Origin: Chrysophaeum taylorii
Lineage: Eukaryota > Sar > Pelagophyceae > Pelagomonadales > Pelagomonadaceae
Direction of reading: 5' to 3'
NCBI GenBank assembly: GCA_029834535.1
Contig: JAQMWT010000445.1
Location: forward strand, 1-60,510
Length of the DNA: 60,510 bases
Below are positions 1 to 37,947 of the stretch, in pieces. A program made the translations under genes and the position numbers. Every line of letters begins with the position of its first letter. Position 1 is the stretch's first letter. A model generated the notes under the pieces. The model was not told the DNA's origin. It saw nothing but the letters and a program-made list of their open reading frames with translations, and made no database searches.

Positions 1-308
1 TGTGGCGTAAGGAGAATTTAGGCCTACCTGGCGTGCCTTCGATTCCTGGCTCGCCGCTCGCGTCCGTGCCCTTGATGGGGTCACTGGACGAGGATGGCCG
101 TTCTCCCGCCACACAACCACAAACAACTTCCGTGCCTGGTCCTCACAACTTGAGGATCGGCTGTTGCTATGATTAGAACACATGAATCACAGAAATCAGG
201 GAAGATGATGTCATAGAAAAACTGACATCATCAGAACGGAGTAGGGTGCCCCTGATAAGGGGGTCCCTAGAAGAGGGTAGGCCTTAGGAGGCGGGAGTTG
301 CCGCCACA
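1..308 (-). repeat. 3' LTR of the Gypsy element
   Basis: This 308-bp repeat matches 9870-10186 almost base for base, with small indels and a few substitutions. Its ends are TGTGGCG and CGCCACA, a perfect 7-bp inverted repeat. Because the element reads on the minus strand this is the 3' LTR. The bases just inside it (309 onward) read on the minus strand as a modest purine run, AGGGAGTCC, a weak polypurine-tract candidate. Confidence 0.9.
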
Positions 309-347: not shown

Positions 348-2218
348 CTAGCGCGAGGAGCGCGGCTTCGCCTTACGAGCATCTCGTGAACGAATCTTCT
401 GGTAAACGCGGGTGATGACCGGTTCAGGAACTCGGCCACTGCGTAAAGTAAACTTGGGGATCAACACATCAATCTCGTGCGGAGCGAAATCCGTGACACA
501 AGGAGTTGTGTTGGAGGAAATTCTGGACTTGTCGGTGAAACTTCGACCTTCAACGTCCTTGAACTCGGGCTTGAGTTTGCGGTGCGAAAGGTGAGAGGTC
601 GGCTTGAAATAAGCGACATCATCGTTCGGACCCAAATCAGAATAAAAGTGACAACACGATCATTGTGGTAATCGTAAGGCTCGTAAACTTCAGCAACATA
701 AATCTTCTTGCGCCAATCAGAGCGCTTCCGGTCAGGAATTCGGAAAACAACAAACTTACCGTGCTGATAATCATCACGGAAGGTTTCTTCGGGTTTGCGG
801 ATGGTTTGATCAACGATCGGAGGTACCATCACAGGCGTGATCTGACTAACATGAACACGTCGTTCTTCGGGCGGAGAGTCGAGAGACTCAATCCTATAGG
901 TGACCGGGGAAAGGCGTTCCTTGATAATAAACGGTCCTCGCCATTCCGGTCGAAGTTTGTTCTGAAAAGGAATGTAGAGCAAAATGTGCGATCCTTCCTT
1001 GTATTCAACATCAACATGATCAGCATTGTAAGCCAATCGTTGTTTCTTCAAAGCTTTATCACGAGCCTCGCGGACGATCTTCGTATAATACTTCAATCGT
1101 TCACGAGTTTCGGCGACTGCATCAGAGCGAGTCTTCGGCAACAATCGCGTATCAAAGTCCATAAGCGTGTAGTCAGTCGGCAGCATCGGCTGACGGTTCA
1201 GGCGCAGCATAGAGGGTAAAATCTGCGTGCCTGGAATAAACTTGCGGTTGTAACAAAACGCAATATAATGGGCAAAGTCGGGCCAATCCGTGATGTTCCG
1301 GCCCTGAAGGCAAGCACGGAGGAAGGCCTTGATAAATCGGTTAACACGCTCAGCCGGGTTCGACTGGGCATGATAAGGATCGTAGTTTGGTATCGTGTGT
1401 TGAAGAGATGGCAAAACTCGCGCATCAACTTGTTCACGAACTCTTTACCGTTGTCGGTACGAATCATCTGGGGCAAGTAGCCCTTGAGGAGGATGTTAAT
1501 GACAAAAGACTCGAGGACAGACTCAGCAGTCTTATCGTTCAAAACATCCAGAATCAAGAAATGCGAGAACGGATCAAAAATACTAGAACGTCTCGGGACC
1601 AGCGCTGGGCAAGGGTCCAAATAAATCCATGCAAAGAACAGCACCATCACCATCGTAGACGGGCTGCTGCAAGAGTCCAGCTCGTTTCGGCTCAGGCGTA
1701 CGAGCTTTCTGGCAAACTAAACATTCAGCAATGAAGACTCCAACTTCGTTCGACATGTGGGGCCACCAAAATCGTTCTTGGATAGCCTGGACGGTACTGT
1801 GACGTCCCATATGACCACCGTTAACCGGAGTGTCATGGTAGAGTCGAATAATGCGCTTGCGCAACGTAGCAGGTGCAACAATCATCGGGTGCAAATCAGC
1901 AGAAATGCGGTAAAGAACGTCCTTAACAACTTCGAATCGTTCGTTCGCTCGGGAACGTCGCGGCGTCTGACCTTGGGCCATTCGGTAGCGAATATCCTCG
2001 CAAGTAGCATCAGATTCTTGCTCACGTGCGATCTCAGCGAGCGTCATATTATCGGGTATCTTATCGATATAATCTTTGTAAGCGGCTGCGTCTTTGAAGA
2101 TCTGTGGCTCATCGCGCACGGTTCTTCCGACGTTGTCTCGTAGCGTGAGACGTTGCCAATTTTGTCGGATCCTTTTCATGATCTTCTTCCTCGTCTTCCG
2201 GCAGTTCGGTCGTAACAA
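348..2218 (-). pseudogene. Gypsy integrase region, frameshifted
   Basis: The integrase is spread over several overlapping minus-strand frames. Frame 1 (1583-2218) has the HHCC zinc-binding part, with LYHDTPVNGGHMGRHS followed by ECLVCQK. Frame 2 (1198-1653) has the catalytic core, with a DLFGP-type first Asp region and IRTDNGKEF for the second Asp. Frame 3 (461-1414) has the catalytic-Glu region (NPAERVNRFIKAF) and a GPY/F-like tail (LRPEWRGPFIIKE). The last piece (348-635) continues a basic C-terminus. The frame changes fall near 2150-2200, 1600-1650, 1400 and 620. The family is clear; a functional enzyme is not possible from this copy without several recodings. The frame changes could also be assembly errors, but their number argues for decay. 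Confidence 0.85.
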
Positions 2219-5141
2219 ACGACATTATGAAGCGGCAACCGGAGGCGGGAACTCCTCGGTCATCAACAGGTCGGGGAAGCTCTTGGAACACCAAATAAGC
2301 GTGGTTCAAAGGTTCTCCAAACTCGTCAGTCTCGATGACATGATCTATCGGGTTGCGGGAGAGACAGTCAGGGATACTCATTCCCGGTGACTTTCCCGGC
2401 TTGTAACCAAGTTCAGGGTCAAAATTGGCGAGGCGCATCGCCCAACGAGCAAGCTGCCCAGACGAGTGCGTCGCCTTACGTAAAAACGTCAAATTTCGGT
2501 GATCGGTCTCCAAAACAGTCCGGTGCCCTTCGATGTAGGCTCGAAAGTGCTCTAGAGAAAGTATAACTGCCAGCAGCTCTAGCCGACGGGGCTCATAATT
2601 GCGCATCTCCTTCGGCACAGCTCGGCTCCAATATTCAATCACTCGTTCTTCTCGAGTCACTCTTCCGGCATCGTCCTTGACTTCGACAATCTGGAAGAGA
2701 TACGCTCCAAGTCCATCCTTGGAAGCATCGGATCGGATCTGAAAAGGCAGATCATAATCGGGGTGGTAGACTCCTCTGGAATCAACCAAAGCTTCAATAA
2801 TCGTATCCCAAGCTTTCTGACACTCGGGCGTCCATTCGAACTTTACACCTTCGAGGCATAATCGTCTTAGCGGTTCCACGATCTTCGAATAGCCCTTCAC
2901 ATATCGCCGGCAATAATTACTCATGCCGATGAAAGAGCGTATCTGGGTCTTCGGGAAAGTATTCGGGAAAGTATTCGGTAAAGTACCTGGAATCGGCATC
3001 TTCTGCAGTGCTTCCAGCGTCTTCGGATTCGGCTTCAAGCCTTGTGGGGTCGAGATGTGTCCCAGAAATTCTATATCATCCTGGAGAAGGTGGAACTTCG
3101 CGGTTCGACCGCTGTACCCTCTCTGTGCCAAATGACACATCACTTCGATCAAAACTTGTAAATGTCGATGAAGATCGTCGGATCCCATCATAATATCGTC
3201 AACAAACGCAACCAAGTCTCGATACATCCATTTCGAAAGGTCGCTCGCCATTTGCTTGCAGAAAAGAGCTCCGGCCGTCTTCACACCTAGAGGTAATCGC
3301 AAGAAACTATGAGCGCCAAGTGGGCTAACCATCGTGACAGCGTCTTGCGCTGCCGGATCCAGACGAAGGTTGTGGTATCCCCATCTAATATCAATGCATG
3401 TCCGCCATCGTCGCATAGCGAGAAAAGCTAAAGCATCATCTTGTCGAATGTTCGGCCAACTGTCATTGACCAATTGATCGTTGAGCTGACGTAAGTCAAC
3501 TGCAGCACGTAACGCGTTTGACGTTCCAATCTCAGCTCCTTTCTTCGGAAGCATCAACACAGGAAAGCCCAAAGGTGAGTTGGCCGGACGAATGACTCCA
3601 GCCCGGCACCACTCGCTGATCTGCTTGCGGAGACAATCGAGCTTCGCAGGCGTCAATCGGTAGGGCGTCATCTTAATCGGTCGCGGATTCGCGTCTTTGA
3701 ATCGTAGAGACACAGGAGGTGAGTCCACAGGTCTCATAATCGGGTCGAAAAAGGCCCAAGAATATTGCTTACAGTGACGGAGCTTCATTTTCGCCTCGTC
3801 ATCTAAGTGCGGATTGTCAGGAATTCCCAGCTCCTGAACAACCTTGTCAACTTCTTCCTTCGTAGGAACTTGAACTTTCATAGCCTCATTATCCTTGACA
3901 TGCTCGGGAGTTTGCGGCAGCGGTGCACCCTCAGCATCGCGCGGCGCATCTTTCCACAGCACATCAAACTTCATCTCATATTTTAGTCTCACTTCCGGGT
4001 GGCTTTTGTTGATCCTCTCGCCTTTGACACGAACACTCGGCTCGCTCTTAATCTTCGGTTCCCGATCTCGCTCAGGATCTGGCGGAACGTCCAAATTTGG
4101 TTGTCGGGGGGGGGCAGCAGAAGAAGCATGAGATGTCCCCGGCTCATCTGTTGCAGGCGGAACCAACGGTACCTCGGGAGGTTTCCATTTGGTGCGATCT
4201 TGGAGATCATCAGTCGATACCCATCTTACGACACGTGTGCGTGTGTTTAACAGCGGAACTTGTACGTGACGAAGGGTGGTTTCATCAATTTGCAAATAAT
4301 AATCAAACGGTCGGTCTGCAGGACTCAACGCGGACGGCAAAGCTTCGCCGCTCAGGTGAAAATCCTTGGTCACAGAGTTGTGCAGATCGAGTACTAATAA
4401 GGTCATCGTGTCTGGTGGCACGACGGACGCCAAGTGTTTCAACGAGGTCGAGCCGGCCCAATCAAACTCAAGGGGCATCGTCAGCAACTCCGAAGTCATT
4501 TTCAGATTCAGAGATCTGTAATCGGAACGGTGCGGTCCTACGCGAAGCGGGACACGCGTAGCGGTATAAGCTGCGTCTGTCGCGGCTCGTGATGATCCTA
4601 AATTGTTCATCCGAAGTAAATGTCGTTCGTCGGCGTAGCCAAGCGCAGCGGCGAACTCTTGTTGCATATTCTTGCAAGTCTTTGGAACTGCGCGCAAATG
4701 GGGCGGGTGGCTGGAAACCAACAATCGCACGCGACAGCTCATCAAACTGGGCGTGATGTCGTAAAAATTGACGACGTACACGTAAGGGTGCAAACGTGCA
4801 ACGTAAGAAATAATCGAAGCCTCCTGCTCTATCAACCACATGAAAAAACCAGCCATCTTGCATAATTTCATCGTCCAGTGGGTAGCGGTGACTCCCTTGC
4901 CAACATCTCTGGAAGTCAAGTTGCACAGAGCGGAGTGTACGCAGGGTGGCGATGCGACACACATCGACGACGACCATTCCGCGTAGGGTAAATAAGATTC
5001 GATCAACCGTAAGGTTGTAACATAGCGACCACACAGTGTGTGCTGCACCACAGGAATATTCGGAAAGTTCTTGTGGTGTATCTGGCTGGCGGTATCCGAC
5101 GCATCGAGTGCTAGCACGACTCGAAGCGACGTTCCACACAT
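2109..5141 (-). CDS. Gypsy pol ORF: end of methyltransferase, reverse transcriptase, RNase H
   Basis: A 1010-codon minus-strand frame. Its first ~260 codons carry the C-terminal part of a C5-methyltransferase-like domain (see 4400-5200). A low-complexity linker follows. The reverse transcriptase includes SPLGFPVLMLPKKG, RAAVDLRQLND, IDIRWGYHNLRL and the catalytic FVDDIMMG (about 3187-3210). RNase H has IRSDASKDGLGAYLF (about 2700-2745), YEPRRLELLAVILSLEHF and LETDHRNLTFL. Near 2943-2990 a short 12-15 bp repeat gives the peptide TFPNTFPNTFPK. The frame ends just before the integrase, which continues in another frame. The displayed start is simply where this frame opens inside the methyltransferase; there is no evidence it is a true initiator. 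Confidence 0.88.
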   Translation of the reverse strand: MCGTSLRVVLALDASDTASQIHHKNFPNIPVVQHTLCGRYVTTLRLIESYLPYAEWSSSMCVASPPCVHSALCNLTSRDVGKGVTATHWTMKLCKMAGFFMWLIEQEASIISYVARLHPYVYVVNFYDITPSLMSCRVRLLVSSHPPHLRAVPKTCKNMQQEFAAALGYADERHLLRMNNLGSSRAATDAAYTATRVPLRVGPHRSDYRSLNLKMTSELLTMPLEFDWAGSTSLKHLASVVPPDTMTLLVLDLHNSVTKDFHLSGEALPSALSPADRPFDYYLQIDETTLRHVQVPLLNTRTRVVRWVSTDDLQDRTKWKPPEVPLVPPATDEPGTSHASSAAPPRQPNLDVPPDPERDREPKIKSEPSVRVKGERINKSHPEVRLKYEMKFDVLWKDAPRDAEGAPLPQTPEHVKDNEAMKVQVPTKEEVDKVVQELGIPDNPHLDDEAKMKLRHCKQYSWAFFDPIMRPVDSPPVSLRFKDANPRPIKMTPYRLTPAKLDCLRKQISEWCRAGVIRPANSPLGFPVLMLPKKGAEIGTSNALRAAVDLRQLNDQLVNDSWPNIRQDDALAFLAMRRWRTCIDIRWGYHNLRLDPAAQDAVTMVSPLGAHSFLRLPLGVKTAGALFCKQMASDLSKWMYRDLVAFVDDIMMGSDDLHRHLQVLIEVMCHLAQRGYSGRTAKFHLLQDDIEFLGHISTPQGLKPNPKTLEALQKMPIPGTLPNTFPNTFPKTQIRSFIGMSNYCRRYVKGYSKIVEPLRRLCLEGVKFEWTPECQKAWDTIIEALVDSRGVYHPDYDLPFQIRSDASKDGLGAYLFQIVEVKDDAGRVTREERVIEYWSRAVPKEMRNYEPRRLELLAVILSLEHFRAYIEGHRTVLETDHRNLTFLRKATHSSGQLARWAMRLANFDPELGYKPGKSPGMSIPDCLSRNPIDHVIETDEFGEPLNHAYLVFQELPRPVDDRGVPASGCRFIMSFVTTELPEDEEEDHEKDPTKLATSHATRQRRKNRAR

Positions 5142-5200
5142 TTCGTTGTTGGAGACCTAAAGTGCTGCCTCCTGTTCCACTGAACAGCATCACCACCTTG
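4400..5200 (-). other. C5-cytosine DNA methyltransferase-like domain inside Gypsy pol
   Basis: Motifs appear in the order expected for C5-cytosine methyltransferases. Motif I is VVMLFSGTGGSTLGLQQ (5161-5205), followed by an acidic cofactor-region strand VVLALDAS. Motif IV is VASPPCVHSA with the catalytic Cys at 4941-4949; the usual PPCQ is PPCV. A motif VI-like WLIEQE stands where ENV is usual. Motif VIII-like SCRVRLLVSSHPP lies at 4681-4745. A motif X-like STSLKHLASVVPPDT lies at about 4405-4455, where GNAVPP is expected. Motif I sits in the protease frame and the rest in the RT frame, so a one-base frame change near 5135-5141 splits the domain. The substitutions plus the frameshift suggest an inactive copy. 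The sequence shows motifs and order; methyltransferase identity is family knowledge; capture by the element is inference. Confidence 0.75.
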
Positions 5201-7560
5201 CGATAAGTGATTGGAAGCCATTGAACCTTTTCGTATCGGCGGCGGGTCTCCGCTTCGGTGATCTTGCGGCACTTCTTTTCATCTTCTTCCGACCTTCGAG
5301 CAAAATCGTCGTCGCCTTCGGGTCGTTTGAGGGAGGACTTGTTCGCCATAGCGGTCGTAGCGTCCTTCTGCGCCGTGCTCAGCAGCATCGGCGGGGGAGA
5401 ATTGTCGCAGCGCGCCAAGTGACTAGCGACAGAAACGGTGAAAGAAAGGCTCCCCTTGTCGTATCCTTCTTCACATTCTTTCGTAAGTTCGTTGATCGTA
5501 GAAACGATCAACTCATCTACGTACCGAACGATGTCGCCAATCGCGAGGACCTCGCCTTGAGTGACGGCCGTCGGCACTTCTTCCGCGGCAGTAACCGCAA
5601 CCCGAGCAGCGGACCGGTCGAGCTCTTCGCAAGAAGAACACATTCCTTCGACAACTCCCAACTGCTCGTTCTCAGCAAACGTAGCGACGAAAACCTGTCC
5701 TATTTCCATAGGTTTCGACAAAATAACCGGTAGATTGTAAGTTCGACCGGGCTCGATTTGAAGCGTGCGCGCAGCGTAAGCCACTACTCCTCGCGCGTCT
5801 TCTCCCGGAGCTGGGGAGAATTTGTTCGTAGCATATCCCCGCGTAGCCAAGGCTACCGTACGTTCCGGCGGCGGGCTTCGGAGATCTTTAATCGTGCTCA
5901 AACGAGCGTAAACTCGAGTCTTGACCAGGTCGAGACTCTTCCGAAAGGCATCGTGTTGATGTTTGTAAATCGGTACGGTGATCGGATCTCGATCGTAAAT
6001 AGATCGTAAGGTCACGATTGGTGCATCGATTCGTTCGTCCTTGAACTTAATCTTCTTGCGCCCGTAGACGACTTGGGTTCGATAAAAACAGATTCGATCG
6101 TGGGGGTAGTCCACGACGGCTCCTAAAACTCGTATATCGCGCCCTCCCAACAGGAACATATAGTTCGTATCGGCCACAATAGCGACAATGGGGGCGGCGA
6201 TATAGTCGGCGAGGGCGACCCGAATCGCGATCCAACGAAAGATCGTCGTCGTATTCAACCCTGATCCGTACAGCTTGCGCTTAATCGGAAGTTCGCCTTC
6301 ATCGAAAATCAACTGATCTTTGGCCAACTTTCTGACCATTTCTCGGCAAATATAAGAAACATCTGCCATTCCATCGACACCGATGGTCGTCGAGAATTTC
6401 GGTCCGTCACGATTCCTGTAGATGTGACAGGCCATAAACGCAAGAGTACCCGTATCCAAACAACTGAGGGTAGCCAAGTCATCTTCGATCGTCTTGCCAT
6501 CTCGCAGCGTCAACGAAGTGTGAGCACATCGGGCTCTGACTCGCTCATCTCCGGGGTTGGGCATCGATACCGCGGCTTGAGCTTTCGTATCAACTGTTGT
6601 TGGCGTCATCGACGTAACGCTCGCGGCAGCCTCTTTATCTGGCGGCTTCCGCTCTTCCTCCAAGACAATCTCAGAGGGAATCAGTGCTGGTAGGGGATCC
6701 CGATTTTCGCTATTCTTTGAAGCAAAGGACCCCTCCCATAAATCATTCATTTCGTCTTTCCAGAATGCATCTGTAAATTCATTCGTCATCGGTTGATCAT
6801 CACCCTCATCGGCGATCGGTTCCGTGTCGGCTGCAGCTTCGAGTCCGTCGTTGAGCGGTTGTTCTGGTGGCTTCTTTAGCAAGAAGTTCCGAGTTCTCGT
6901 CCACCAATCCTGCAGGTTCCACGTCGGCTCATCTTCGTCCCACTCGAGAACGCTGCTAATCTTCTTCTTAAATCTATCCTTTTCTTCCGGCGGCGTGTCC
7001 ATGGCTCGATCCGTCGTGACCGAAACCGTTTCGGGGGGGTCCGCAGGAAAAGATGGCGTCGTCCCCGACGTCAACTCTATCGTAAGCTCGTCGTCTGCAT
7101 TACTCGCGCTGGTCATCGTCTCGTTCGTCGAGTGATCACACGAGCTATCACTGCAGAAATCCATGTCTGGCTCACCGCCAGTTCGGTCGCCAAAGGTCGT
7201 CCCTGGAGGGTCCAAAGATAAGCCGATGGCGTCGAGGGCTTCCTCGTCAAAAATAAACGGCGGGTCGTCCGTGGACGACTCGTCAAATAACGTTATCGCG
7301 GACACTGGTTCGCGAGGTGTAGCTTCTTCTTCTTCCGAGTCTGAATCGCCTTCCCAGTATCGTGGAGCTTCGAGGTCATCGCTCGAATCTTCGAGTTCAT
7401 CGCTCGACATCTCCTCATAAATCTGTGCCAAAGACCGACGATTGGTCAGCACGTCGTTGGGTGGCTCGTCCATCGGCGGGCGAGCAAGATCTTCGAATGC
7501 GGCCGTGGCAAGGACGTCGGCTGCGTCGTCGGTGCGGGTGTCCGTATTCGGGTACACCAT
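4468..7560 (-). CDS. Gypsy acidic linker, aspartic protease and start of methyltransferase
   Basis: A long minus-strand frame starting at the ATG at 7560. The upstream reading (NARVYDPCGQQLPLG) also looks coding, so the natural protein probably begins further upstream and is cut by a frameshift near 7620. The first ~340 residues are Asp/Glu/Pro/Ser-rich linker. Residues around 385-490 (about 6080-6420) resemble a retropepsin: IGVDGMADVSYI in the active-site position, where DSGA or DTGA is usual, and later FLLGGRDIRVLGAVVDY, the ILG-type flap partner. A Lys/Arg-rich region and methyltransferase motif I follow. The final ~220 codons (below about 5140) overlap the RT frame and are probably read-through shadow. 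Confidence 0.7.
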   Translation of the reverse strand: MVYPNTDTRTDDAADVLATAAFEDLARPPMDEPPNDVLTNRRSLAQIYEEMSSDELEDSSDDLEAPRYWEGDSDSEEEEATPREPVSAITLFDESSTDDPPFIFDEEALDAIGLSLDPPGTTFGDRTGGEPDMDFCSDSSCDHSTNETMTSASNADDELTIELTSGTTPSFPADPPETVSVTTDRAMDTPPEEKDRFKKKISSVLEWDEDEPTWNLQDWWTRTRNFLLKKPPEQPLNDGLEAAADTEPIADEGDDQPMTNEFTDAFWKDEMNDLWEGSFASKNSENRDPLPALIPSEIVLEEERKPPDKEAAASVTSMTPTTVDTKAQAAVSMPNPGDERVRARCAHTSLTLRDGKTIEDDLATLSCLDTGTLAFMACHIYRNRDGPKFSTTIGVDGMADVSYICREMVRKLAKDQLIFDEGELPIKRKLYGSGLNTTTIFRWIAIRVALADYIAAPIVAIVADTNYMFLLGGRDIRVLGAVVDYPHDRICFYRTQVVYGRKKIKFKDERIDAPIVTLRSIYDRDPITVPIYKHQHDAFRKSLDLVKTRVYARLSTIKDLRSPPPERTVALATRGYATNKFSPAPGEDARGVVAYAARTLQIEPGRTYNLPVILSKPMEIGQVFVATFAENEQLGVVEGMCSSCEELDRSAARVAVTAAEEVPTAVTQGEVLAIGDIVRYVDELIVSTINELTKECEEGYDKGSLSFTVSVASHLARCDNSPPPMLLSTAQKDATTAMANKSSLKRPEGDDDFARRSEEDEKKCRKITEAETRRRYEKVQWLPITYRKVVMLFSGTGGSTLGLQQRNVWNVASSRASTRCVGYRQPDTPQELSEYSCGAAHTVWSLCYNLTVDRILFTLRGMVVVDVCRIATLRTLRSVQLDFQRCWQGSHRYPLDDEIMQDGWFFHVVDRAGGFDYFLRCTFAPLRVRRQFLRHHAQFDELSRAIVGFQPPAPFARSSKDLQEYATRVRRCAWLRRRTTFTSDEQFRIITSRDRRSLYRYACPASRRTAPFRLQISESENDFGVADDAP

Positions 7561-9500: not shown

Positions 9501-9869
9501 CTACTCGTCCACGACACGCGTAATATCGTCGTCGCGTGCGTCTTCCACCGACCGATCTATCAGTCCGGTGGGCGGCAGAATGCGTCTCTGCCCGGCAATC
9601 AATGCCTCAGTGAGTTGTGATCTCACTCCGCTCGCCTGCGGCAGCGGTACCCGGGTTGCGCGTCGGCTAGAACCGAATCGCGCGTCGTCACCTCCGACGA
9701 CTAACGTATTCGGCTGGGGAACTTTCCCACGGCAGTGGTCCTTCTGGAATTCCTTGTCGGCGCGCTTGATCAGGGCGCGCACGGCTTGTCCGGACCGTGT
9801 AGAGAATGCAAGATGCACTCGTTCGCTGCGACCGATATGGTCGCTCGAATCTCGTGTTCCTCCACCACC
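9501..9869 (-). other. Gypsy leader / possible gag N-terminus
   Basis: Sequence between the 5' LTR and the clear gag-like frame. A minus-strand frame is open from inside the LTR to 9501 and includes VRALIKRADKEFQKDHCRG. It could be the start of gag separated by a frameshift, or untranslated leader. Nothing else is recognisable. Confidence 0.35.
9850..9867 (-). other. Candidate tRNA primer-binding site
   Basis: On the minus strand, two bases inside the 5' LTR, the sequence is TGGTGGAGGAACACGAGA. This would pair with a tRNA 3' end finishing in CCTCCACCA. Position and leading TGG fit an LTR-retrotransposon primer site. The cognate tRNA was not identified. Confidence 0.5.
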
Positions 9870-10186
9870 TGTGGCGCAAGGAGAATTTAGGCCTACCTGG
9901 CGTGCCTTCGAATCCTGGCTCGCCGCTCGCGTCCGTGCCCTTGATGGAGTCACTGGACGAGGATGGCCGTTCTCCCGCCACACACAACCACAAACAACTT
10001 CCGTGCCTGGTCCTCACAACTTGAGGATCGGCTGTTGCTTTATGATTAAGAACACTTGAATCACAGAAATCAGGGAAGATGATGTCATAGAGAAAACTGA
10101 CATCATCAGAACGGAGGTAGGGTGCCCCTGATAAGGGGGGGCCCTAGTAGAGGGGTAAGCCTTAGGAGGCGGGAGTTGCCGTCACA
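9870..10186 (-). repeat. 5' LTR of the Gypsy element
   Basis: A 317-bp partner of 1-308, beginning TGTGGCG and ending CGTCACA. It should carry the element's promoter and polyadenylation signals. The few differences and indels between the two LTRs mean the insertion is not brand new but not ancient either. Confidence 0.9.
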
Positions 10187-35230: not shown

Positions 35231-37947
35231 TCAGGTCGCCAGGTCGTCGTCGTCGTCGTCATGGTCTTCGGCGGCGACGGCGTTCGTAGGTCTGTTATGG
35301 GTGGAAGGGATATCGCCGTGTCGTTGTTTCTTACTTGGGCCCCCATCACGGCCCTTTTTGCCACGTGCGCGGTTCTTGTCGTAGTTGGGCCTTTGCCTTG
35401 AGAGCTCCTTCTGGAGCCAGAGGAGGTGAGAACGTTCGGGTTTTCTGGAGTTGGGGAACTGGTCCTTGATGAGACTGTTGAGAAATGCGACACCGTCGAC
35501 CTCGCCCTTCGTTTCTAGGACCTCGTAGATCACAGCGCGCCTGCTGAACGCTTTTTCAAAAGCGCGCTCGTCCTTGCGGGTGCCATTCGAGCGCCACGAA
35601 TGTTTGCCGTCCTTGCCCATCCCAGACCGCTTCTTTGGACCGTAGAAGCGCTCGAGCTCCTTGACTGGTGGGCCTCCGTCGACGCCGCGAAAATACTCTT
35701 GGGCCACATCCTGCGGCGACTCGCACGGTCGTAGGTTATAACACGACGCGAATTTGGGGAGCGGGTCCTCGTCCCAGGTCGACGAGTCAGCAACGACGAG
35801 AGGTCGAATACCAAACATGAGCTCATCTTCAGCCATGTCCTCGGTGGCAGGCCGACGTGGCGGCGTAGCAGGTGGCTCGGCGTGGCCAATCTGAGCGATA
35901 GAGGACCCGGCGGGCGCAATAGGAGGCTCAGGACGACTAGTAGCGCCGCACACTTGGCTGTGGATCTCGCTAAGCAGGCGCATAGGGGTGTTTGCAAGCC
36001 GGACGGCGGTCGTCGTCGAGGGGTCGGCCAACCCCATAGGAGCCTCGGGATGACAAGTAGCGTCGCACACTTGGCTGTGGATCTCGCTGAGCAGGCGCAT
36101 AGGGGTGTTTGCAAGCCAGACGGCGGTCGTTGTCGAGGGGTCGGCCGATGCATCGAGCTTTTGGCAGTCGTCGCAGAGCGAGGTGTTGATTTTGTTGATG
36201 GCGGCGGCAGTCTGCGCGTCGCCGCGTTCCTGTGCTGCCGCAGCCGTCATCCGCAGGCGCTCGGCCGGCATGTTCTTTATAGCGGTGTCTTGGCGCTCGG
36301 CGTAGTCGGCGAACTCCTTCGTGTTGAAAGGCTCGTAGCCCCACATTGGGTGGTCGTCCATCTTGCCCTGCCTGCGCATGAAGGCGGCATCTTGGACCAG
36401 GCACTCAGCAAGGTAATCGATCATCTGCAGGTGGTTGCGCGTCGTGTGGTCAAACGAATTATTGCGAAATAAGTCGGTGCCCAAAGCCGCACTAACCGGG
36501 TTGACAACAGAGCCGAACACCTTTTTCTTGAGGGAGTCAGGCACAGGCTCGAGTGATCGCGCAACGTAGAAACAACCGCCTTGGGGCGGGAAACCGGCGT
36601 TGTGTCGAATAAATCGCATAGGGAAGTCGTTGCAGTTCGAGATGCTGAGAACGTCCGCCTGGCGGTGGTGTTCGACTTCACGAAGCTCGTCGCGGCTGAC
36701 TCCGGCAGTCTCCGCCATTCTGAAAGACTCGCGGCGGCGCAGGCACACGACATACTCAGGATCTAAGATCGGGTCTGCGATCGCCTCGTACATGTGCTTG
36801 GTATCATCAAGCATCGTCCTGTTCGAGAGCGGGGCCGTCGGGTCGGGAGGCCGCGACTTGCCGGGACAGCCAGAAGGCTTGTTGCCGAAGAACAGGAAGT
36901 CAGTCATCCACTCGTGGACGACAATCGGCTGCCCATCGTTCTCGTCCACGCCCTCGTACGGAACGTAGTTGGGCTTGCGGACACCGAGAACGATCCACAT
37001 CGTGAACAAATAGAGCGCCATGCTGAAGTGGAGGCACCTACAGATCCAGCGCGTGAACGGGGCGCGACGCGGCGGAGCGCCTACCTCTCGGGGTTCGTCG
37101 CGTGGCGCATCGCGGCGCTCGCGTCGACGTGTCCCGCGTGGTTTCTCGTGCCGTTGTCGTGCAGAAACACCAGCAACCAGCAAACGTGAGGGCCTTCGGT
37201 AGAACGCGTCTGGAAAATTAGCCAGTCTGCAATCTGACACTTGAGAAGGCTGTCGCCACGCAGAGCGAGCGCGTGCTGGAGCACGTGTTCGAAGCGCGCC
37301 CGAGTCCCGCGGAAGAGCTTGTTTCGGCCGCCCGGGCCAGGCGCGCCGTCGAACAGCGCGTACTCGCAGAGCATTCTGTGCTGCTCGTCGTTGTAGCCGT
37401 TCTGCAACGCCTCGGTGTCACGGTTGATAAACTTGCGGCGCTTGCGGCTTGACATCTCCTTGGCGTGATTCGCAAGAACGACCGGGATAAACCGATTTGT
37501 TCGGGGCGACGGGATCTTCTGATCGAGTAAGCGGGGCATGTAATTCTCGAGCGTAAGCTGCTCCTTGTATAAATCGACGAGGGCCTTCAGCATTTGCTTC
37601 AACGTGCACGTCTCGACCCGGCTCCCCTGGATCGGGTTGCCGTTCGAGTCCATCTTCGGGCGCTTTGACGTGAAGTACAAGAACTCGAGGCTCTTCTCGG
37701 GCGTTACCAGGTCGTCCTCGTACACCTTGCGATCAGAATCGATATGGTGGCCGTAGAGCATCGACCCCGGCGCCGCGGCCACAAACGTACGGAACTGCTT
37801 GATCCATCGCGTTCCCTCGCCCTCGGACGTCCCGTATGACTTTGACGTATTCTTGGGACGCTTCTCGAGCGTATCGACCCGAACAGCACGCTGCATTAGT
37901 ATGGAACGCTTCGAGAGCAACGTCATCAGATTCTCCCGCCGCTCCAA
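35231..37947 (-). mobile_element. Crypton-type tyrosine-recombinase transposon ORF, frameshifted
   Basis: Two minus-strand frames overlap at 37081-37240. The upstream one (first ATG 37926) reads RPKNTSKSYGTSEGEGTRWI, then ENYMPRLLDQKIPSPRTNRF, EYALFDGAPGPGGRNKLFRG and TRARFEHVLQHALALRGDSL. It ends with HVCWLLVFLHDNGTRNHAGH. The downstream one continues with FSMALYLFTMWIVLGVRKPN, then RMAETAGVSRDELREVEHHR, AGFPPQGGCFYVARSLEPVP and DSLKKKVFG, the layout of Crypton tyrosine recombinases. The C-terminal part (DVAQEYFRGVDGGPPVKELE, RFYG ... AFEKAFSRRAVIYEVL) resembles the GCR1_C DNA-binding domain found with Cryptons. The segment NCNDFPMRFIR stands where the nucleophilic Tyr is expected and shows no Tyr. 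The frameshift and this loss suggest a dead copy. Confidence 0.6.
35934..36167 (-). repeat. 117-bp in-frame tandem duplication in Crypton ORF
   Basis: Two adjacent 117-bp units (CACTTGGCTGTGG at 35951 and 36068) encode a duplicated 39-residue block, DPSTTTAV(W/R)LANTPMRLL and on, between recombinase and DNA-binding domain. Confidence 0.85.

Follow-up and report, generated by a model that had tools for sequence, protein, structure and literature searches.

The first 10.2 kb of contig JAQMWT010000445.1 from the pelagophyte alga Chrysophaeum taylorii are filled, on the minus strand, by a Ty3/Gypsy retrotransposon that, judging from its motifs and its relatives in the same genome, very probably carries a captured C5-cytosine methyltransferase (MTase) domain. 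The stretch analysed here (60,510 nucleotides; hereafter the window) corresponds to C445, one of the 697 contigs that make up a 70.8-Mb genome; the published assembly is given as 71 Mbp in 702 contigs (PMC10366177). The order RT (reverse transcriptase), RNase H and integrase, recovered with Pfam both in the window and in the open reading frames (ORFs) of sister copies, is that of Ty3/Gypsy elements, and the MTase domain is placed between a protease-like segment and the RT. A sequence-only reading of the window had proposed a C5-MTase-homologous domain inside a Gypsy element, and this is upheld by matches to the Pfam MTase profile PF00145 in unbroken sister copies and by hhalign scores above those of all decoys.

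The MTase domain of the window copy is split because the frame changes near 5150: motif I lies in ORF 7626-4468 and the remaining motifs in ORF 5156-2109, which runs from the MTase motifs onward into RT and RNase H (Table 1). Among the motifs named in the sequence-only reading, I, IV and a VIII-like one can be recognised, spread over these two frames; its motif X, VVPP (4427-4410), is doubtful, HNSV being, by eye only, the likelier candidate.

Table 1. Features of the Gypsy element in the window, with the MTase domain and its motifs first
Feature	Position	Strand	Basis
C5-cytosine MTase domain, two frames	4200..5200	-	motifs here, profiles in sister copies; ends approximate
MTase motif I, S-adenosylmethionine (SAM) binding, FSGTGGS; VVMLFSGTGGSTLGL	5152..5196	-	motif reading; ORF 7626-4468
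Motif II-like	5061..5123	-	motif reading; ORF 5156-2109
MTase motif IV, CVASPPC, putative catalytic Cys	4941..4961	-	motif reading; ORF 5156-2109
Motif VI-like WLIEQE (Glu)	within 4815..4847	-	motif reading; ORF 5156-2109
Motif VIII-like R-x-R, CRVRLLV	within 4710..4763	-	motif reading; ORF 5156-2109
Possible motif X, HNSV	within 4368..4397	-	by eye only
5' long terminal repeat (LTR), TGTG...CACA	9870..10186	-	LTR alignment; ends by eye at TGTG and CACA
Primer-binding-site-like stretch	9844..9864	-	directly inside 5' LTR; pattern recurrent in genome
Retropepsin-like protease segment, VDGMADVSYI ... LLGGRDI	6133..6387	-	motif reading; similar in copies L041-L044
Reverse transcriptase PF00078	3054..3515	-	Pfam, E 2.6e-12
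RNase H PF17917	2421..2759	-	Pfam, E 6e-26
Integrase zinc-binding PF17921	1697..1873	-	Pfam, E 7.5e-19
Integrase core PF00665, further frame	1384..1581	-	E 1.1e-6, 29.3 bits, below curated cut-off 32.6
3' LTR	1..308	-	LTR alignment; stops at contig start, final CACA = contig positions 4-1

The homology to C5-MTases emerges from the sister copies. The profile-matched domain set has 17 rows representing 16 distinct copies, since L022 and L042 are the same place, with one open copy (L031) left out. PF00145 is matched by all 17 rows at E ≤ 1 (best 2.6e-6), by the whole unbroken ORFs of L044 (1.1e-4) and L041 (8.2e-4, below the curated cut-off), and by all four additional copies of a second subfamily, B (see below), of which L055, with its Glu replaced by Lys, falls below the cut-off. 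Intact copies, which the sequence-only reading had suggested seeking in the source genome, thus carry the same domain and no different one at this place. Of the 324 positions of the Pfam profile about 50 are matched and, in the seven Gypsy proteins with coordinates, only in the motif I-II region; an NCBIfam search returned only a weak match to dcm (0.0016). With hhalign, 12 copies compared with five DNMT2 references (four PDB chains and the host's own) gave a probability of 95.0 and a score of 63.0 over 76 columns spanning motifs I to IV, and the same copies against six bacterial plasmid MTases gave 92.6 and 56.5; none of 100 column-shuffled decoys reached the real scores, the best being 24.8 (DNMT2) and 21.6 (bacterial).

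Conservation of the motifs was read in two alignments of the Gypsy MTase domain, A1 with 17 rows and A3 with 13. Motif I reads FSGAGGS in most rows (15/17 in A1, 11/13 in A3) and FGGAGGS or FSGVGGS in the remainder, and motif IV is SPPC in 17/17 and 12/13, respectively, with a single SPLC row and the Cys present throughout A3 (13/13). Of the motif VI-like EQE, the Glu at Cys+38 is kept in 12 of the 13 A3 rows; the motif VIII-like RVR, placed by eye 32 residues past the Glu, is kept in all 13. The resulting pattern, viz., two hydrophobic residues, Glu and Gln at Cys+38 and then R-x-R plus two hydrophobics 32 positions on, was chosen with the sequence already in view, its allowed ranges coming from known enzymes. 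Motif IV is recognised in 13 of the 14 references, and nine of these 13 satisfy the pattern, as do 3 of 100,000 tail shuffles.

At least 125 scored places in the alga's own genome (from 1006 candidates), the window included, match at 76-100% identity; by hand count the matched stretch is stop-free in 101 of the 125, and among the 20 best places, which include the window, 14 have no stop from a point ahead of motif I to the end of motif VIII. Such copy numbers are lower bounds, which near-duplicate contigs may inflate slightly. In each of the contig pairs C10/C297 and C25/C521 the hits nearly coincide in coordinate and score, suggesting uncollapsed haplotype copies. The family comprises two subfamilies, A and B, about 80% identical in the domain; the presence of the MTase in both implies that its capture predates their split. 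The ratio of non-synonymous to synonymous substitution rates (dN/dS, NG86) is 0.068 between the subfamilies (range 0.054-0.079; 45 pairs from nine A and five B copies), at a dS of about 1.9, which is close to saturating; inside the subfamilies it is 0.20 (A) and 0.25 (B). The Gypsy MTase domain is under purifying selection. Between one copy of each subfamily, DNA identity is 0.61-0.70 in the protease segment, 0.69-0.79 in the MTase and 0.82 in the RT. The 122 RT hits divide into 66 with a listed MTase hit just upstream and 56 without; five of the latter were fetched, all five carry the region in a broken or rearranged state, and no form of the element without the MTase (an empty-site control) was found among these five of 56 candidates.

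As an explanation of the whole we propose, with reasonable though limited confidence, that the window holds a decayed member of a large C. taylorii Ty3/Gypsy family with a captured C5-MTase in Pol that would serve brief self-methylation. The MTase, which is likely to be catalytically active in at least some copies, would be translated within Pol, released by the protease and co-packaged with RT and RNA. There it would use SAM to methylate cytosines in nucleic acid of the element itself, most probably in new complementary DNA (cDNA) and possibly in RNA. We tentatively put cDNA forward as the main substrate, at a little short of an even chance, RNA being distinctly less probable in that role; cDNA is favoured because two enzymes of the dinoflagellate element SymbioDIRS-Dnmt3 methylate CG de novo in a yeast assay (PMC5890265), whose authors suggest cDNA self-methylation. 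The role of the mark would be short-lived, ahead of integration or at that step, e.g., as a self-mark or protection, and would not be one of lasting CpG silencing.

Several results weigh against this explanation. The search of both window frames with PF00145, proposed in the sequence-only reading, gave no match at E ≤ 10, the window copy being broken; this is the first of the two outcomes which that reading named as refuting, and we ascribe the silence to the frame change. Similarity to profiles reaches motifs I-IV at most; the positions of motifs VI, VIII and X come from reading and spacing. Motif VI is ENV in classical C5-MTases, and it is replaced here by EQE, with the Asn-Val not kept. No homologue passed among 5.8 billion proteins, either of the polyprotein region (3786 candidates, under length limits) or of the domain profile (7998 candidates), and no relatives were found in viral contigs. 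In the yeast assay, KnitGypsy-Dnmt3 of Klebsormidium nitens, the one Gypsy enzyme tested, and the SymbioLINE enzyme showed no methylation (PMC5890265), negatives regarded by its authors as inconclusive, human DNMT3B having been inactive as well. Finally, the Gypsy copies display no excess of CpG transitions (ratio 1.05, 20 loci), and CpG depletion is absent (observed/expected 1.29 in Gypsy copies, with 1.22 for the remainder of the window). In a second, Copia family described below the corresponding values are 1.10 (18 loci), again with no excess, and 1.06; CT, and not CpG, is the most changed dinucleotide context in both families. The CpG result is modest evidence, since the counts are pairwise and made on related sequences that are mostly coding, and since decay could be masked by efficient repair. 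On that modest evidence lasting CpG self-silencing is disfavoured; transient marking, other contexts and RNA marks are left untouched by it.

The affinities of the domain bear on the nature of its substrate. When 14 references were searched by hidden Markov model together with 2,800 shuffled decoys, all five DNMT2s came out above every other reference, although one decoy outranked three of them and only 1g55 stood apart, at 13.3 bits and E 0.004. Among the PDB matches listed for the A and B profiles, the MTases were all DNMT2s (E 0.05-0.2): the B-subfamily domain gave four sequences at E ≤ 10, of which the three MTases are the DNMT2s 9hgm, 1g55 and 4h0n (E 0.05-0.1), and the top match of the A-subfamily profile was a non-MTase (GGA1). 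The hhalign probabilities of DNMT1 (1.6), DNMT3A (0.3) and DNMT5 (0.2) come from single sequences only, which makes the ranking unfair to these three. A tree against reference MTases, also suggested in the sequence-only reading, was built with 22 rows and yields no resolved placement, DNMT2 and DNMT3 included, the query branches being very long (2.98). DNMT2/TRDMT1, the transfer RNA (tRNA) C38 methyltransferase, is the best profile match of the Gypsy domain over motifs I-IV and shares with it the motif II form A-x-D-x(4)-A-N-x(5)-N-F-P; it differs in its Glu-RxR spacing (41 versus 32 in the Gypsy domain), in a C-terminal half to which the Gypsy domain has no detectable similarity, and in the CFT stretch of the target-recognition part, present in the five aligned DNMT2 chains and in the host's own, and in 0/13 rows of A3. 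Because CFT is lacking, the Gypsy domain is not a DNMT2 proper; we regard it as a putative C5-MTase with a DNMT2-like leaning. That it is instead an RNA methyltransferase appears unlikely. Its DNMT2-only matches among MTases in the B-subfamily PDB search and the rank of the five DNMT2 references point that way, and the lack of detected CpG decay is compatible with it; however, no such score is significant alone, a decoy intrudes above three DNMT2s, the A profile puts GGA1 first, the bacterial profiles score nearly equally (92.6 vs 95.0), the tree gives no placement, the CFT stretch is missing, and no primer tRNA was matched.

The genome harbours a second, dissimilar retroelement MTase. A whole-genome PF00145 search returned 57 matches, of which 20 were inspected: two are host genes (L001, L002) and the other 18 fetched loci (L003-L020) encode a different MTase, with LPCQ in 18/18 and VENV in 17/18. 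A 1952-residue ORF at L048 (3097-8952, contig C96) combines a protease-like SLIDGGASF (by eye) with PF00145 (1.1e-7), an integrase core (0.006, below cut-off) and RVT_2 (1.6e-38), in that order, and we classify this element from its predicted domains as Ty1/Copia. The Copia MTase family (L003-L020, L046-L050) has at least 136 matching genome stretches, some of them pieces of one element. By hhalign it resembles the six bacterial plasmid MTases (94.3 over 142 columns) more than DNMT2 (50.5), and it shares with bacterial C5-MTases of the M.HhaI type PCQ, ENV (at the 17 loci noted) and a motif VIII-like stretch, differing in its degenerate motif I (AIIAGGLHQEG) and its location inside a Copia polyprotein. 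Its median dN/dS is 0.15 (range 0.09-0.52; 61 of 78 pairs with dS > 0.3; 13 of 18 loci usable), and the Copia MTase is under constraint. In L003-L020, ACG is the most changed of the 16 trinucleotides (0.27) and TCG is among the lower ones (0.13).

We considered the Gypsy and Copia MTases as products of one capture and rejected this, there being no similarity between them. As the Copia MTase is bacterial-like and dissimilar to the Gypsy MTase, two captures are likelier than one; they are likely, and very old common descent is conceivable. A more specific variant would have two independent LTR captures, DNMT2-like in Gypsy and bacterial-like in Copia, both MTases lying C-terminal to the protease, with the Gypsy enzyme acting on genomic RNA or primer tRNA; we hold this combination to be improbable, and if true it would be a case of a retroelement with its own RNA cytosine methyltransferase. 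The two host genes are a DNMT2-like one (L001:1498-2580), which has the CFT stretch, and a DNMT5-like one (L002:1006-3537), which matches PDB 7r76 (named 'DNA repair protein Rad8' and which we take to be the Cryptococcus DNMT5) at 3e-143; the alga may, on this gene content, have both tRNA and DNA cytosine methylation. A light-harvesting protein gene adjoins the DNMT2-like gene, and its product is 99% identical to CTAYLR_008532 of C. taylorii.

It is also rather improbable that the Gypsy domain is a former MTase without catalysis, retained in Pol for binding nucleic acid or for a structural role: the end of profile similarity after motif IV, the change from ENV to EQE and the strong divergence from every reference (the branch of 2.98) would be expected of such a relic, but Cys, Glu and RxR are kept across two old subfamilies at a dN/dS of 0.07, their spacing is enzyme-like, and motif I persists as FSGAGGS in most rows of both alignments. 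Chance similarity or mis-assembly, with the MTase no part of the element, could appeal to the silent window frames and is already refuted by the failure of all 100 decoys, the at least 125 places across many contigs, and the PF00145 matches in all 17 sister rows; the region's presence in the five checked copies seemingly without it and the ordinary cellular genes that share the window contig also speak against it.

DNMT-bearing retroelements as such are already published, viz., a Gypsy element in Klebsormidium and DIRS and long interspersed element (LINE) types in dinoflagellates; the published cases found concern LINE and DIRS elements of dinoflagellates and elements of streptophytes (PMC5890265, PMC12344493). 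For streptophytes and dinoflagellates, the 2025 Molecular Biology and Evolution (MBE) paper speaks of 'LTR Copia and DIRS' elements with DNMT3 (PMC12344493); in the 2018 paper the streptophyte element is called Gypsy (PMC5890265). Placement within pol, which the sequence-only reading had called notable, has precedents, since in KnitGypsy-Dnmt3 and SymbioDIRS-Dnmt3 too the DNMT is part of the Pol ORF (PMC5890265); its expectation of a lineage other than the published ones found holds, the host being a pelagophyte stramenopile. KnitGypsy-Dnmt3 is likewise an LTR Gypsy element with several copies and a C5-MTase in the Pol ORF, and purifying selection is common to both (Ka/Ks < 0.2, PMC5890265; dN/dS 0.07-0.25 here). 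It differs in its charophyte host, Dnmt3 affinity and DIRS-like repeat arrangement (Fig. 4 legend, PMC5890265), whereas the Chrysophaeum element has a pelagophyte host, plain LTRs and DNMT2 and bacterial MTases as closest profiles, DNMT3A having entered the comparison as one sequence alone. SymbioDIRS-Dnmt3 and SymbioLINE-Dnmt of Symbiodinium share the abundance of retroelement-borne DNMTs in one algal genome, the DIRS one in Pol (PMC5890265), but are tyrosine-recombinase DIRS and LINE elements of another host, unlike the LTR classes Gypsy and Copia here. DNMT2 served as the negative control in the yeast assay (PMC5890265).

Among the titles and abstract openings listed by full-text searches, largely outside subscription journals and without bioRxiv preprints, none describes a DNMT-bearing element from a pelagophyte or any other stramenopile. 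As far as searched, the new aspects are the stramenopile host, the co-occurrence of Gypsy and Copia carriers in one genome, and the DNMT2- or bacterial-like affinity, which widen a rare phenomenon to another branch of life. Retroelements bearing an enzyme of the host silencing system present a paradox, and finding two unlike MTases within a single stramenopile genome of 71 Mb, each in its own LTR superfamily, suggests that carrying the domain brings a repeated advantage; the small genome and culturable alga make a methylome and expression test practical.

The direct LTR repeats of the element (10190-9870 versus 312-1) align with 303 identical positions, nine mismatches and nine gaps. The primer-binding-like pattern recurs, at ≤ 2 mismatches, at 99 genome places (52 forward, 47 reverse), with none for a reversed-pattern control; no priming tRNA was matched to the stretch at 9844-9864, which resembles the complement of a tRNA T-arm plus acceptor end, one base out of step. 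The protease-like segment has no Pfam match in the window, and its active site (6349-6387) reads D-G-M-A, not D-S/T-G-A, in all four sister copies inspected. Elsewhere in the window, the minus-strand ORF 35234-37417 combines NDC10_II and GCR1_C domains, a pairing that we take to be that of Crypton-type tyrosine-recombinase transposons.

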